This document shows positions 7,138-13,256 of a DNA stretch of 35,733 bases, one piece after another. The stretch is from Clostridiales bacterium (GTDB lineage: Bacteria > Bacillota > Clostridia > Lachnospirales > Lachnospiraceae). Position numbers and translations under genes: made by a program. The stretch lies in NCBI GenBank assembly GCA_012512855.1, contig JAAZDK010000065.1:1-35733 (forward strand), read 5' to 3'. The number at the start of each line of letters is the position of its first letter. The stretch's first letter is position 1. The notes under the pieces were generated by a model that worked only from the letters and a program-made list of their open reading frames with translations, had not been told where the DNA came from and did not search any database.

Positions 7138-7386
7138 ATGGATGCAATTTTATCATCAACAATGTCTGCAATCGGACTTATGCTTGGACTGGCCTTTCTT
7201 GGAATAGGTATCGGACTGGGCATATTGGGTTCAAAGGTGGCTGAAGCCGTAGGAAGAAATCCGGAAACAAAGAATGACATTGTCCGTTCGGTAATGATAA
7301 TAGCCATAGTCATGACCGTATTGCTGCTCCTGCTGTTTTCATTCATTTTCCTATTACTGTATTTTAATCCTTACATGATACAGTAG
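7138..7386 (+). CDS. F-type ATPase c-subunit-like rotor protein lacking the ion-binding carboxylate
   Basis: An 82-residue hairpin of two membrane helices, preceded by AAGGAGA. Helix 1 has the glycine ladder [10 protein letters not shown] used for c-ring packing. The polar loop carries Arg40-Asn41-Pro42, equivalent to Arg-Gln-Pro of AtpE. In AtpE the essential Asp/Glu lies exactly 20 residues after that Arg (R41 to D61 in E. coli). Here that position is Thr60, and helix 2 (about 50-76) has no acidic residue at all. So the ring should assemble and dock the central stalk, but proton or sodium transport as normally understood is not expected. The C-terminus is extended by about 8 residues (NPYMIQ). 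It is the first gene of an atp-like set in the canonical order, with no a-subunit gene before it. Confidence 0.88.
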
Positions 7387-7419
7387 GTAACTTCTGTTGC
7401 AGGAAATGGAGGGTAAGCT

Positions 7420-8190
7420 ATGAATGCCGGTTTTGCAGTAGCTCTGATTATCATGCTGCTTATGCTTGTATTTGCTTTCATTATCATCAGAATTATAGCC
7501 TATTATACCGGAAACAGAATCAGGGATTATGCCGTGGAGCAAATGCAGGCCTATGACATGCTGATTCGGAAAAAAACGGAAGAGCTTAATGAAATTAAAA
7601 ATCAACTGGATGCCGAAAAGAAAAAAGCCGCCCAAAAGGATATGCTGCAAATTGATGATAAGGAAATTCCGGAGGTTTTTGCTCCACCCTTTGCGGAATA
7701 TCGTAATTATGAGCTCTTTTCGGACTACAGGAGAATAAAAGAGAATTTCCAGTATACGGAGGAAGATATAAAGGAACAGGTAGAATTACTCTTGCAGGAT
7801 ACACAAAATGATAATCGCTATCAAAGCCTGGAATCCTTGCTGTTAAAATTGAACAACGACAATGTATATAAAATTTCTTCACTGCAGCCGGAGGAACAGC
7901 TGGAGCTTATCAGCGAAATTGTTAACGATGATGAAAAAAGCTTGCTGAACGAGTATATGGCTGACTGTAAAGAGTTTTCCTGCATTGACTTTTGCCAATG
8001 GCTTTATGTACAAAGGGTACTGTCTGACAACAGCATACGGATTAGATGCTCACAAGACTGTGAGATTACCGCTCTTAAGAGCAAATTGGTATCGATAGAG
8101 CCGGATCAGGGCCTATGCGAAGGCTTTCAGATATTCAGAGGAAATAAATTATACGACTTCGGTATTCGGATTAGTGAACTGATGAATTAA
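7420..8190 (+). CDS. Fused b-delta-like peripheral stalk protein of the divergent F-type ATPase
   Basis: 256 residues, start supported by GGAGGG about 9 bases upstream. One N-terminal membrane helix (about 5-28) is followed by a charged coiled coil (about 32-75), as in subunit b. A mainly helical middle follows. The C-terminal 55 residues show an alternating beta pattern ending EGF-QIFRGNKLYDFGIR, which resembles the delta-subunit ending GGFVIRIGDKVxDxSVR. Position between the c- and alpha-like genes is where atpF and atpH normally sit. I read it as a b-delta fusion forming the stator that holds the alpha3beta3 head to the membrane. The b part is clear from architecture; the delta part rests on a short motif and gene order. 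Confidence 0.72.
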   Translation: MNAGFAVALIIMLLMLVFAFIIIRIIAYYTGNRIRDYAVEQMQAYDMLIRKKTEELNEIKNQLDAEKKKAAQKDMLQIDDKEIPEVFAPPFAEYRNYELFSDYRRIKENFQYTEEDIKEQVELLLQDTQNDNRYQSLESLLLKLNNDNVYKISSLQPEEQLELISEIVNDDEKSLLNEYMADCKEFSCIDFCQWLYVQRVLSDNSIRIRCSQDCEITALKSKLVSIEPDQGLCEGFQIFRGNKLYDFGIRISELMN

Positions 8191-8215
8191 AAAATAAAAG
8201 GCTAAGGTGATCGTA

Positions 8216-10370: not shown

Positions 10371-11732
10371 ATGATGAAGGCCGGTAAGATAATATCAATA
10401 TCCAATATGAGAGTAGAGATTTTACTTGAGCAGAATAAGGTAAAACCTGGTGATATAGTCAGCACTGAGCATAACGGCATCCATCGCTTTGAGATAGCGC
10501 GTGTAAACGGTAATATAGCAACAGCCATTCCCTTTGATAATGTCAAGGGTCTGCGTAAGGGTCTTGACGTCAATATAGAAGAGGGTGGACTTGCCATACA
10601 GTATTCTGATGAGATACTGGGTAAGGTATTTGATTCCTACGGAAATCTAATCGACGGAAACACCATTGAAACAGTCAGGACGAAAAATGTATATGAGCGT
10701 AATTTGAAGCTGAATGAAATAGATATTGATGGAGACATCCTCTGGACAGGCATTAAAGCGATAGATTTCTTTGCGCCTATGCAAAAGGGCTTTAAGATGG
10801 GACTTTTGGGAGGCGCAGGCGTAGGCAAGACCGTATTGATAAAGGAATTGATCAACAATGTTTACAAGGGCCTGAGATCGAACTCGGTATTTGTAGGTAT
10901 TGGTGAACGTTCCAGAGAAGGTAAGGAGCTTTACGACGAGATGCTGGATGCCAATCTGATAGACAAGATGTCGATGGTATTCGGGCAAATGGGTGAAAAC
11001 TCCATGAACAGATCAAGGGCTATCTACAGCGGCCTGACTCTGGCAGAATATCTTCGTGACGAGAAGGGGCAGGATGTACTCCTCTTTATTGACAACATGT
11101 ACCGTTTCGTGCAGGCTAACGCGGAAATTACAGCAGAGATGGAACAGCTGCCTATTGACAACGGCTATTCATCAACCCTCTTATCCGATATCGCAGCTGT
11201 TGAGGAGCGAATCAACTCTACCGACAAGGGCTCCATAACCTCCTTCCAGACTGTATATATTCCGGCAGATGATATGAACGATTCAGCAGTACATGCAATA
11301 ACCTCCCACTTTGACGGGCAAATCGTTCTGGATCGTAAGGTTGCTGCCAAGGGTATATATCCGGCTATAAACGTATTTAAGACCAGCAGCAAGCTGATAT
11401 CGGTTGATAAGGTTGGACAGAGGCATTATCAGCTGGTTCAGGAGGTGCTGCGCTATATGTCCAGATATAACGAGCTGGAGGAGATAGTTGCGGTCTTAGG
11501 TATTGAGGAGCTGTCGACCGAGGATTACAATATTTTCTATCGGGCAAGAAAGCTGCGTAATTATTTCACCCAGCCTATGTTTGTTGCTGAGCAGTACACC
11601 AATATACCGGGTAAGTTTGTCGCTATTGAGGATGTCCTGACAGATGTGGAGGCTATACTGGACGGCAAATATGATACGACCGATGAAAACAGATTCGCCT
11701 ATATTGGAAATCTTCATGAGTACCGCAAATAA
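10371..11732 (+). CDS. F1-type ATPase catalytic beta-subunit-like protein
   Basis: 453 residues. Intact catalytic features: P-loop GGAGVGKT (147-154), GER with the catalytic glutamate at E179, [11 protein letters not shown] (Walker B, D241), and EELSTED (379-385), the DELSEED lever that contacts gamma, followed by [14 protein letters not shown] near the C-terminus. ATP hydrolysis is therefore expected. Departures from AtpD include [10 protein letters not shown] in place of the strict QAGSEVSALL segment and [12 protein letters not shown] in place of IYPAVDPLDSTS near the adenine pocket. The protein is slightly shorter than the usual 460-480. The spacing of 3 bp from gamma suggests translational coupling. 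This is clearly an F-type beta and not the housekeeping copy in type, judging by the divergence and surroundings. Confidence 0.94.
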
Positions 11733-11767
11733 GATGGTTTTTATATATTCCGGAAAAGAGGTATATA

Positions 11768-12055
11768 ATGGCTAATACAGTGCAAAATGCAGGGAAAAAA
11801 AGTATAGAGGCGATAGTAATAAGCTTCAGAAACGGTTATCAGATATACTATAATGTCAAGCTAATCCGTATCGTCAGCAAGAAGTATAATCTTCTAATTA
11901 TGGTTGACTATATGCCTATAGTAGGGGAGATGGATGGCGATATTGAAATCGTTTCGGAAAATGATGTAGTCAGCATGAAGAACATCAATGCCTTCTATAT
12001 CATGAAGAATAATGTGTTCAAGCTATTGATCAGGGAGGATACACATGCAGAATAA
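11768..12055 (+). CDS. Short epsilon-like subunit without C-terminal helices
   Basis: 95 residues with AGAGG just upstream. The sequence is predicted all-beta. The segment from [20 protein letters not shown] to the end fits the N-terminal beta-sandwich of epsilon (VxFVSLPTxxGExGILPxHxPLxxxLxxG), and it follows beta, where atpC belongs. Usual epsilon is about 130-140 residues; the two C-terminal helices that inhibit ATP hydrolysis are absent. If the call is right, the protein would link gamma to the c-ring without that autoinhibition. Similarity is weak, so much of the assignment rests on gene position. It overlaps the following gene by 11 bp. Confidence 0.6.
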
Positions 12056-13256
12056 TATTGTCTACAACCTGTCCATGATGGGACCCTACATTCTGACGGT
12101 TGTAGTATTTATGATTGCATTTGCAATGGTCAGTTTGCTCCTTATCCGCAATATAAGGTGGAAATCCGGACTGATTAAGGTATATGGATTGTTTATAGGC
12201 ATGAAGTCGGTTAAGCAGTTTGCACTGGCTGCTATATTGCTTCGGCTGCTATTTATATGGTATCTGGCGTTTTATAACGAGCTCGATTTGGTCCATATAA
12301 TCTACGGAGCGATCATTACTATACTTATACATTTGCTTCTTGCAGATTTAAGTATACTTCCATTTGACCTAATCTGCATGGTATTGATGTTTGCCGAGCT
12401 GTATATTGGCAAGATACTGGGCTTATATATCAAAAACACAAAAACCGATATCCTGCTTATTGCGGGGTATATAGCAATTTCAGTGTGCGTTTTGGTTACA
12501 TCCGTATACTGCATGACCGAGCATATAATCAGTCTTGTCAATGTCAGAAAATCGAAAAAGCTCGGTGCCAACCTGACAAAAAGATTATATTTTATTCTTG
12601 CGGGCCTGTTTGTGGCTGCCGTTCCCTATATATATATAAATCAAATTGATATATATCAAACCGATCAGGAGGTATATCAGTATACGGCAGCCGGCAAAAC
12701 GACATATCCTGCCAAAAGCAGAATATCAAAGACGGAAGATATTGGCATAATAGAGCAGGACAAGGAATTAATCGCCCTGGATAAAACACCTTTGTATTTT
12801 ACTGAAGATGATGCATTAATGCTGACAAGCGTTTATTCAATTATACAGCCGAATCTTGCCCTTACCAACAGGGTCGGAATTAACAGTATAATTTATCTTG
12901 ATGATGACGGTACATATTATGTTGACAACAGTCAGGCCAAGGTAAGGGTTTCGGATTTCTTTCTGTTTGACGGTAAGGATACCTATATATTCTTTGAACC
13001 AACAGAAATAAGCTGGGATGAAAATGCAATAGAAATATCACCCTTTTCGTATGTAACAGTTAAAAGCAACAGAAGCATCGAGTTTTTTGACAGGGCAAGC
13101 GAAAGCTACAGAGTAATTGAAACAGGGGTAAGTTATGTCTATGCGAAATTAGGCAAGGGCTCATCTATAAATATGAGCTCGGATATATTAATCAGAAGTA
13201 ACGGTCAGGAGCAGTTTTTATTCCTGCAGCCTAATTTGCTTGAGGATTTAAAATAA
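12045..13256 (+). CDS. Six-helix membrane protein with extracytoplasmic module, at the end of the ATPase gene set
   Basis: 403 residues; GGGAGGAT precedes ATG 12045, which overlaps the epsilon-like gene. About six membrane helices are visible (roughly 12-34, 58-77, 83-101, 104-128, 135-156, 181-199). A soluble beta-rich region (about 205-403) follows, predicted outside the cell. That region shares motifs with the C-terminal part of the next protein: '[11 protein letters not shown]', 'EISP-F/L-SYV' and 'GQE..LF..P.LL'. It is not recognisable as subunit a: the a-subunit LRLFGNM motif is missing, although helix 2 has a buried Arg67 ([10 protein letters not shown]). It is the only polytopic protein of the set and so a candidate stator or bridge between the c-ring and the surface proteins. 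No family recognised. Confidence 0.8.

Follow-up and report, generated by a model that had tools for sequence, protein, structure and literature searches.

A conserved F1-type ATPase gene set without an apparent ion path, clustered with surface-protein genes in Bacillota and Actinomycetota

INTRODUCTION

What is a set of F-type ATPase genes doing inside an operon of surface-protein genes, when the parts that would handle ions are missing from it? The question is posed by a stretch of DNA of 35,733 nucleotides from a Clostridiales bacterium of the Lachnospiraceae (assembly GCA_012512855.1, contig JAAZDK010000065.1), which we call the window; it makes up the entire contig C288 in a draft genome of 3.05 Mb that is 87% complete. 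An earlier note, made from the sequence alone, had interpreted the set as a rotary ATPase that does mechanical work on extracellular structures. Our comparisons support this interpretation in part: the F1-type set is separate, conserved and devoid of an ion path, and the surface-protein genes are part of the same module.

We think it fairly probable that the set encodes an ATP-driven, ion-uncoupled rotary motor, descended from the F1Fo-ATPase, that acts on surface proteins. The parts that would burn ATP and form the shaft have been kept, the ion-handling parts occur in no sequence tested and the surface genes travel along; we therefore propose a rotary machine working on surface proteins. Sequence shows which parts are present and that the ion path is missing, and from this we infer rotation, ATP hydrolysis and work on the surface proteins.

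RESULTS

The ATPase genes

Twelve tightly packed genes lie on the + strand between positions 1 and 28125, in the order A, B, c, b-delta, alpha, gamma, beta, epsilon, followed by genes for proteins of 403, 478 and 3,712 amino acids (aa) and for a GGDEF-EAL protein. The six ATPase subunit genes (7138-12055) keep the classical atp order minus a, and open reading frames (ORFs) together with Pfam and profile matches place them where the earlier note had done. These genes and the one that follows them are listed here; TM stands for transmembrane segment and AF2 for an AlphaFold2 model, the quality of which is given as the predicted local distance difference test (pLDDT).

7138..7386, + strand: c-like rotor subunit with Thr60 where the carboxylate would be, RNPETK loop kept (PF00137; 72-sequence alignment; profile match)
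7420..8190, + strand: b-delta, putative stator subunit with a helix at residues 2-77 (TM and stalk), a helical bundle and a small beta domain (AF2; Foldseek, weak; hhalign to delta)
8207..9541, + strand: alpha, 444 aa (PF00006; P-loop and Arg finger present)
9576..10367, + strand, ATG start at 9585: gamma (PF00231; hhalign to gamma 99%)
10371..11732, + strand: beta, catalytic (PF00006; P-loop Lys and catalytic Glu present)
11768..12055, + strand: epsilon-like, short, 95 aa (hhalign to epsilon 46%, E 2.1e-4)
12045..13256, + strand: X+Y fusion, 403 aa, with a five-TM domain X followed by a TM and an all-beta ectodomain Y (AF2, pLDDT 88.4)

Relatives were collected by scanning named genomes with a gamma profile. 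This gave 133 stretches encoding a relative, the best 80 of which were analysed; some of these 80 loci are near-copies or come from one shared genome.

The catalytic head is readily recognised. Pfam PF00006 matches both alpha (E 1.5e-72) and beta (E 9e-67), and PF00231 matches gamma (E 1.5e-25). The main catalytic residues are intact in the window and in nearly all relatives, as claimed for the window before: the P-loop Lys of alpha is found in 80 of 80 rows and its Arg finger in 78, with Lys in the other two, while beta has its P-loop Lys in 81/81 and its catalytic Glu in 80/81. In the Bacilli-type loci L093, L096, L112, L116, L119, L123 and L126 the alpha ORF reaches 562-1,090 aa, owing its length to a low-complexity, mostly acidic extension at the C-terminus.

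The remaining subunits are more divergent, and neither b-delta nor epsilon of the window has a Pfam or NCBIfam match better than E 0.04. When profiles of the system were compared with those of six canonical subunits, c picked c and gamma picked gamma. The b-delta profile picked delta (70.7%, E 3.8e-5) and had no match to the canonical b profile, its b part being recognised only as a long TM helix. In its AF2 model (pLDDT 90.6) the long helix spans 76 residues and is accompanied by the helical bundle and the small beta domain listed above, and the top 37 Foldseek matches in the PDB are all ATP-synthase chains, which we read from the chain letters as delta or its mitochondrial counterpart, the oligomycin sensitivity-conferring protein (OSCP). 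By sequence profile and model, b-delta thus resembles a delta/OSCP-like, TM-anchored stator subunit. Among defence models the sole match of b-delta was a weak one to JetA (E 7e-4), which we took for a coiled-coil chance match and rejected. For epsilon, canonical epsilon was the best of the six profiles when built from 16 canonical sequences (46%, E 2.1e-4), and the comparison with just 3 canonical sequences was not significant (0.7%). The epsilon orthologue from Bifidobacterium matches TIGR01216 at E 1.9e-4, under the cut-off of that model.

A rotor subunit without the ion site

The c-like protein of the window matches its family (PF00137, E 5e-9; system profile against 18 canonical c sequences, 98.2% in hhalign). 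To our knowledge, known F-, V- and A-type rotor rings all require a carboxylate. The earlier note had pointed to its loss here, and this holds throughout the alignment of 72 c sequences (71 loci and the window, near-copies included): position 60 carries T in 32, A in 28, V in 6, S in 4 and M in 2, and D or E in 0/72. That position 60 is the canonical Glu/Asp site, in its exact register, rests on our reading of the helix. In contrast to this site, the loop RNPETK does not vary across the 72 sequences, and the helix-1 glycines are present in 71-72 of them. We expect that the carboxylate-free c would still form a ring.

The ratio of nonsynonymous to synonymous substitution rates (dN/dS) of c is 0.006-0.064 in seven of eight pairs of relatives, the eighth pair being saturated, and in six of the seven unsaturated pairs it exceeds the value for beta by at most 0.01, if at all. 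In this analysis c, alpha and beta are under strong purifying selection. This bears on another explanation for the locus, that of a decaying ATP synthase duplicate in which subunit a and the c site were lost. Two defining features of Fo are indeed gone. Against decay stand the selection on these subunits, the invariant c loop, the occurrence in two phyla and the small genomes, described below, in which the system is the only rotary ATPase seen; in our view the conservation data already refute this explanation, and we give it next to no credence.

Subunit a and protein X

The absence of a subunit a, noted before for the window, extends further. PF00119 has no match anywhere in the window's own genome, window included, nor was a subunit a found by genome search in the same-genus genome G006. 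A subunit-a profile run against every ORF of the 80 related loci gave a best E of 0.32, which is no match.

A candidate for a hidden subunit a is the polytopic protein X. It is present in 75 of the 76 loci that have epsilon (in L076 it was recognised by a hidden Markov model and missed by our position rule), and is fused to Y in the window's clade, the two being separate genes in most other loci. At position 67, within a TM, X has Arg in 47, Lys in 19 and Gln in 8 of 76 aligned rows, which recalls the arginine of subunit a. By profile we rejected this identification: X picks none of the six canonical profiles, and its comparison with the subunit-a profile gives 0.5%. A PDB search with the X+Y model (best E 0.076) found no significant fold match, which leaves its fold unplaced.

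Other rotary ATPases in the hosts

The earlier note expected a separate ATPase in the same genomes, and this is true of some hosts only. The window's own genome has two V/A-type ATPases, with A/B pairs on contigs C225 and C113 in a PF00006 search (NCBIfam confirmation covered the C225 pair, the C113 A subunit and two I subunits). Its other PF00006 proteins, on C241 and C79, were taken for FliI and Rho, respectively, by scores only. Since there is no subunit a, no c carboxylate and other ATPases are present in the genome, we reject a role as the housekeeping ATP synthase for the set in the window. On the complete chromosome of Chakrabartyella piscis BP5G a canonical atp operon occupies 631.8-637.9 kb, and the system operon lies about 6 kb from it, at 643.8-671.6 kb. 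Subunit a was present in 25 of 39 host genomes searched (G006 was in this sample), and a V-type I match in 8 of 28, seven of these above the cut-off.

The expectation failed in a group of small gut genomes, the hosts of L070, L074, L078, L088, L093, L096, L099, L108, L112, L113, L117 and L119, in which neither subunit a nor V-type I was found. Each has exactly two PF00006 matches above 200 bits, which lie on one contig in 11 of the 12; in the other, G768, they lie on two contigs and alpha was assigned by score only. The leftover PF00006 matches in these genomes are five at 86-103 bits, taken for Rho, and three below 20 bits. In 12 of 12 of these hosts the system is thus the only rotary ATPase seen. 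Because these are draft genomes, the absence of other ATPases is weaker evidence here. A c sequence could be obtained from 11 of their loci (L113 is cut before c), and none has D or E at position 60.

Such hosts, together with the near-universal polytopic X and its TM Arg or Lys (66 of 76 rows), are what could be expected of a pump that still moves ions, with X standing in for subunit a and c binding an ion without a carboxylate. The lack of any D or E at the c site in 72 sequences and the 0.5% comparison of X with subunit a argue the other way, and we regard such a pump as improbable.

The surface proteins

The other genes of the operon are as follows.

1..5040, + strand: gene A, 5′ end cut because the left end of the window is the end of the contig; product with a collagen-like tract and a long array of extracellular domains, and a single N-terminal TM in full-length relatives (PF01391 collagen, E 1e-15; 1,946-aa full-length orthologue in G006)
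5040..7004, + strand: gene B; product with a TM at the N-terminus, then a conserved beta domain, a Gly-Gly-X tract and a C-terminal domain, without a Pfam or NCBIfam family
13282..14718, + strand: second Y-like ectodomain protein, 478 aa, an extra copy in the window's clade (31%, E 8e-36 to the G006 orthologue of the 403-aa protein)
14705..25843, + strand: giant surface protein, 3,712 aa, TM near both ends (45% identical full-length orthologue in G006)
25840..28125, + strand: GGDEF-EAL protein, final operon gene in some lineages (PF00990/PF00563)

The earlier note had given the giant 3703 residues; the gene stands, and the start codon that we chose makes it 3,712 aa. Beyond the operon, inspection by eye of 28406-35733 suggests PlsY-like and glycosyltransferase-like genes on the minus strand, followed by genes resembling those for teichoic acid synthesis and export.

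All 6 full-length copies of A combine a single N-terminal TM with runs of 23-39 Gly-X-X units. B has one N-terminal TM in 63 of the 65 copies listed (the exceptions are L060 and L128) and a Gly-X-X run of at least 8 and up to 53 units in 44 of the 65; at its N-terminus, RKL and F..F are shared by most of 66 rows. In 7/7 full-length copies of the giant a TM lies close to either terminus, and Y is modelled by AF2 with an N-terminal TM and an all-beta ectodomain. A Y-like ORF is found in 72 of the 80 loci, the other eight being five contig ends and three variant loci. Apart from collagen in A, curated cut-offs were not reached by the A proteins tested (Pfam) or by the B, X, Y and giant proteins tested (Pfam and NCBIfam), and Pfam gave no match for the giant of C. 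piscis or the giant part of Bifidobacterium colobi.

F1 relatives such as FliI serve type III export, and the co-encoded surface proteins could be the cargo of an ATP-powered secretion or assembly engine, one that would help to export or fold the giant and its companions. Alpha and beta do score with FliI models (175 and 227 bits), although far under the cut-offs; neither reaches that of the FliI or YscN models. An export ATPase should have no need of gamma, epsilon, c and a TM-anchored b-delta, all of which are retained here, and the ordinary N-terminal TM segments of A, B, Y and the giant in nearly all copies are compatible with Sec. We consider a secretion engine unlikely, if somewhat less so than an ion pump.

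The GGDEF-EAL gene raises the further idea that the complex is a membrane ATPase with a regulatory or energy-sensing role, linked for example to cyclic di-GMP, and without mechanical output. This gene lies behind the giant in four of the seven genomes with sequence beyond it (the window, G006, G174 and G350), in the same position. It is not found there in G059, G329 or C. piscis, and the 80 loci stop short of the place where it would lie; G059 and G329 also do without the 478-aa gene. The conserved rotor and stator parts would be superfluous for a sensor, and this idea seems to us very unlikely.

Gene order and distribution

The setting in an operon of surface proteins was borne out. In 24 other genomes sampled from the same genus a close alpha was found in one, G006 (78% identical), which has the identical twelve genes in identical order, with different flanking genes on both sides. 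In a sample of the family, a system gamma at E <=1e-15 was found in 6 of 397 genomes, own included; the five others retain the order, single genes being unclear at contig ends or from ORF picking. The run from B through c, b-delta, alpha, gamma, beta and epsilon is unbroken in 63 of the 80 loci, with B directly before c in as many, and 14 loci are incomplete, mostly at contig ends by their coordinates.

Large ORFs flank most loci, counted by length and position and not by homology to A or the giant. An ORF of at least 700 aa lies upstream of B in 57/80; among the rest, 19 have no room, L096 has little and three are variant loci. Downstream the count is again 57/80, with 16 lacking room, three variant loci and four without such an ORF. 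By this count the surface genes probably stay with the set in most loci, the exceptions being these four and the three loci of variant order. By record prefix, several drafts have two or three copies of the system on separate contigs (L054/L058/L062; L085/L089; L100/L121; L079/L107).

The host records comprise Lachnospiraceae, Oscillospiraceae, Family XIII, Peptococcaceae, Erysipelotrichaceae, other Bacilli, metagenome-assembled genomes of Mollicutes, Coriobacteriales and Bifidobacterium colobi LC6. The earlier description of the host as a walled Firmicute fits the Bacillota and is too narrow, as B. colobi and Coriobacteriales carry the set. Their rows fall within Bacillota groups in the first of our alpha-plus-beta trees (support 83 and 100, respectively), and this nesting suggests transfer between phyla.

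Relation to known systems

With canonical F1Fo ATP synthase the system shares c, b/delta, alpha, gamma, beta and epsilon in the same order, and it differs in having no subunit a, no c carboxylate, a shorter alpha and epsilon, and clustered surface-protein genes. The cut-offs of the N-ATPase models TIGR03324 and TIGR03305 were not reached (334 of 750.5 and 411 of 752 bits).

Two mycoplasma systems invite comparison. The Type 3 F1-like X0 ATPase, partner of MIB-MIP, is similar in its F1-like alpha, beta, gamma and epsilon, its non-Fo membrane proteins and its surface partners; according to these papers it differs in lacking a b homologue, in having no c among its seven proteins, in a 12-TM protein and in gene order (PMC12994834, PMC3369863). 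The Type 2 G1-ATPase, the gliding twin motor of Mycoplasma mobile, is likewise an F1-derived ATPase for surface work, and its GliD is thought to derive from a b-delta fusion; G1 alpha is reported to be without the H1 helix and GliD without a TM (PMC11864180). The alignment of our system alpha profile begins at position 4 with normal alpha, and not before position 27 with G1 alpha.

Membership in either type was considered and rejected. Alpha and beta reach 295 of 520 and 404 of 570 bits with the Type 3 models NF045936 and NF045934, and 363 of 600 and 387 of 850 bits with the Type 2 models MMOB1660/1670 of NCBIfam. A Type 3 model was over its cut-off in 0/398 genomes of a first phylum search and in 76/295 of a search centred on genome G767. 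Profiles of X, b-delta, epsilon, c and gamma gave no convincing match to the Type 3 clusters L217 (nearly full) and L218 (partial), Type 3 membrane proteins included.

In a quick tree of alpha plus beta, the system, the canonical and the mycoplasma Type 3-like sequences form three fully supported groups. This tree is unrooted and has no outgroup, with long stems and an odd composition in the mycoplasma rows, and it leaves the sister of the system clade open. Its canonical rows are 17 from relatives of the window's order and one mycoplasma sequence read as Type 1, and the row named L148_normal in the first tree is the system copy of C. piscis, not a canonical sequence. The second tree left out the C. 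piscis row, the long-branched L210 (read as Type 2 from a beta extension) and 15 of 32 system rows. With its c and its TM-anchored b-delta, the system is nearer to ATP synthase in anatomy than either mycoplasma system.

DISCUSSION

The motor that we propose could work as follows. Alpha3-beta3 would hydrolyse ATP and turn gamma-epsilon, which would be fixed to the c-ring via the RNPETK loop, as the invariance of that loop suggests, so that the ring would be a pure rotor in the membrane. The membrane-anchored b-delta stalk would keep F1 stationary, probably along with the polytopic X, which has a conserved Arg/Lys in a TM. Torque would then cross the membrane to A, B, Y and the giant, and an extracellular fibre or adhesin may in this way be twisted, pulled or reset. 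There is precedent for such a division of labour in the mycoplasma F1-like ATPases that work with surface proteins (PMC12994834, PMC11864180), the nearest being the G1 gliding motor (PMC11864180) and the Type 3 ATPase, which is described as needed by MIB-MIP (PMC12994834, PMC3369863).

A bolder and more specific version, which we hold only tentatively, is that the ion-blind c-ring serves as a rotating membrane joint that carries B or A, a TM of which could sit in the ring. The torque would wind or spin surface fibres, collagen-like in many lineages, and would move an adhesin of about 4,000 residues, and the device would be widespread in walled gut bacteria.

Several observations weigh against the proposed motor or parts of it. 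A further active-site Arg of beta (residue 216 in the window), which we take to be R260 in bovine numbering, is Arg in the window and in 26 of 81 rows, and is replaced by Lys in 51, by His in 2 and by Met in 1, with a gap in 1. The Foldseek scores of b-delta are weak (best E 1.4e-3, none reaching 0.001, with query TM-scores of 0.15-0.30). The c of L093 has an Asp at position 59, one before the carboxylate position, the sole such case among the 72, and the small hosts in which no other rotary ATPase was seen, which the earlier note would have counted against the motor, have already been mentioned. B has no Gly-X-X tract in 21 of 65 loci, B. colobi among them, and Pfam finds nothing, collagen included, in A of B. 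colobi and L108; a collagen-like fibre is therefore not universal. The variant loci L079, L080 and L082 have b-delta first and a different order, with no c or Y-like gene found, and with A-like genes downstream of X, joined in L079 and L080 by a B-like gene. Four loci with sequence beyond Y have no ORF of at least 700 aa there, and 53 of the 133 stretches lie outside the analysis. Finally, clustered genes are no proof of contact: the motor may be touched by A, B, X, Y and the giant, or merely co-expressed with them.

We found no description of the system in the open-access PMC literature, a coverage that excludes subscription papers and preprints. F1-like ATPases with surface partners are called specific to mycoplasmas, or said to have no known counterpart in other bacteria, in the papers cited here (PMC3369863, PMC12994834, PMC11864180). 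The system described above stands apart from these as a third line. It occurs in Bacillota and Actinomycetota, its hosts include isolates, and it is equipped with a stator and with a c subunit that has no ion site.

These results make the conversion of a rotary ATPase into a mechanical device a testable question and place a large, uncharacterised envelope machine in gut bacteria. If the c-ring does act as an ion-blind rotating joint, these bacteria would possess a rotary surface motor that runs on ATP and differs in kind from flagella, from type 9 secretion and from the gliding motor of mycoplasmas.

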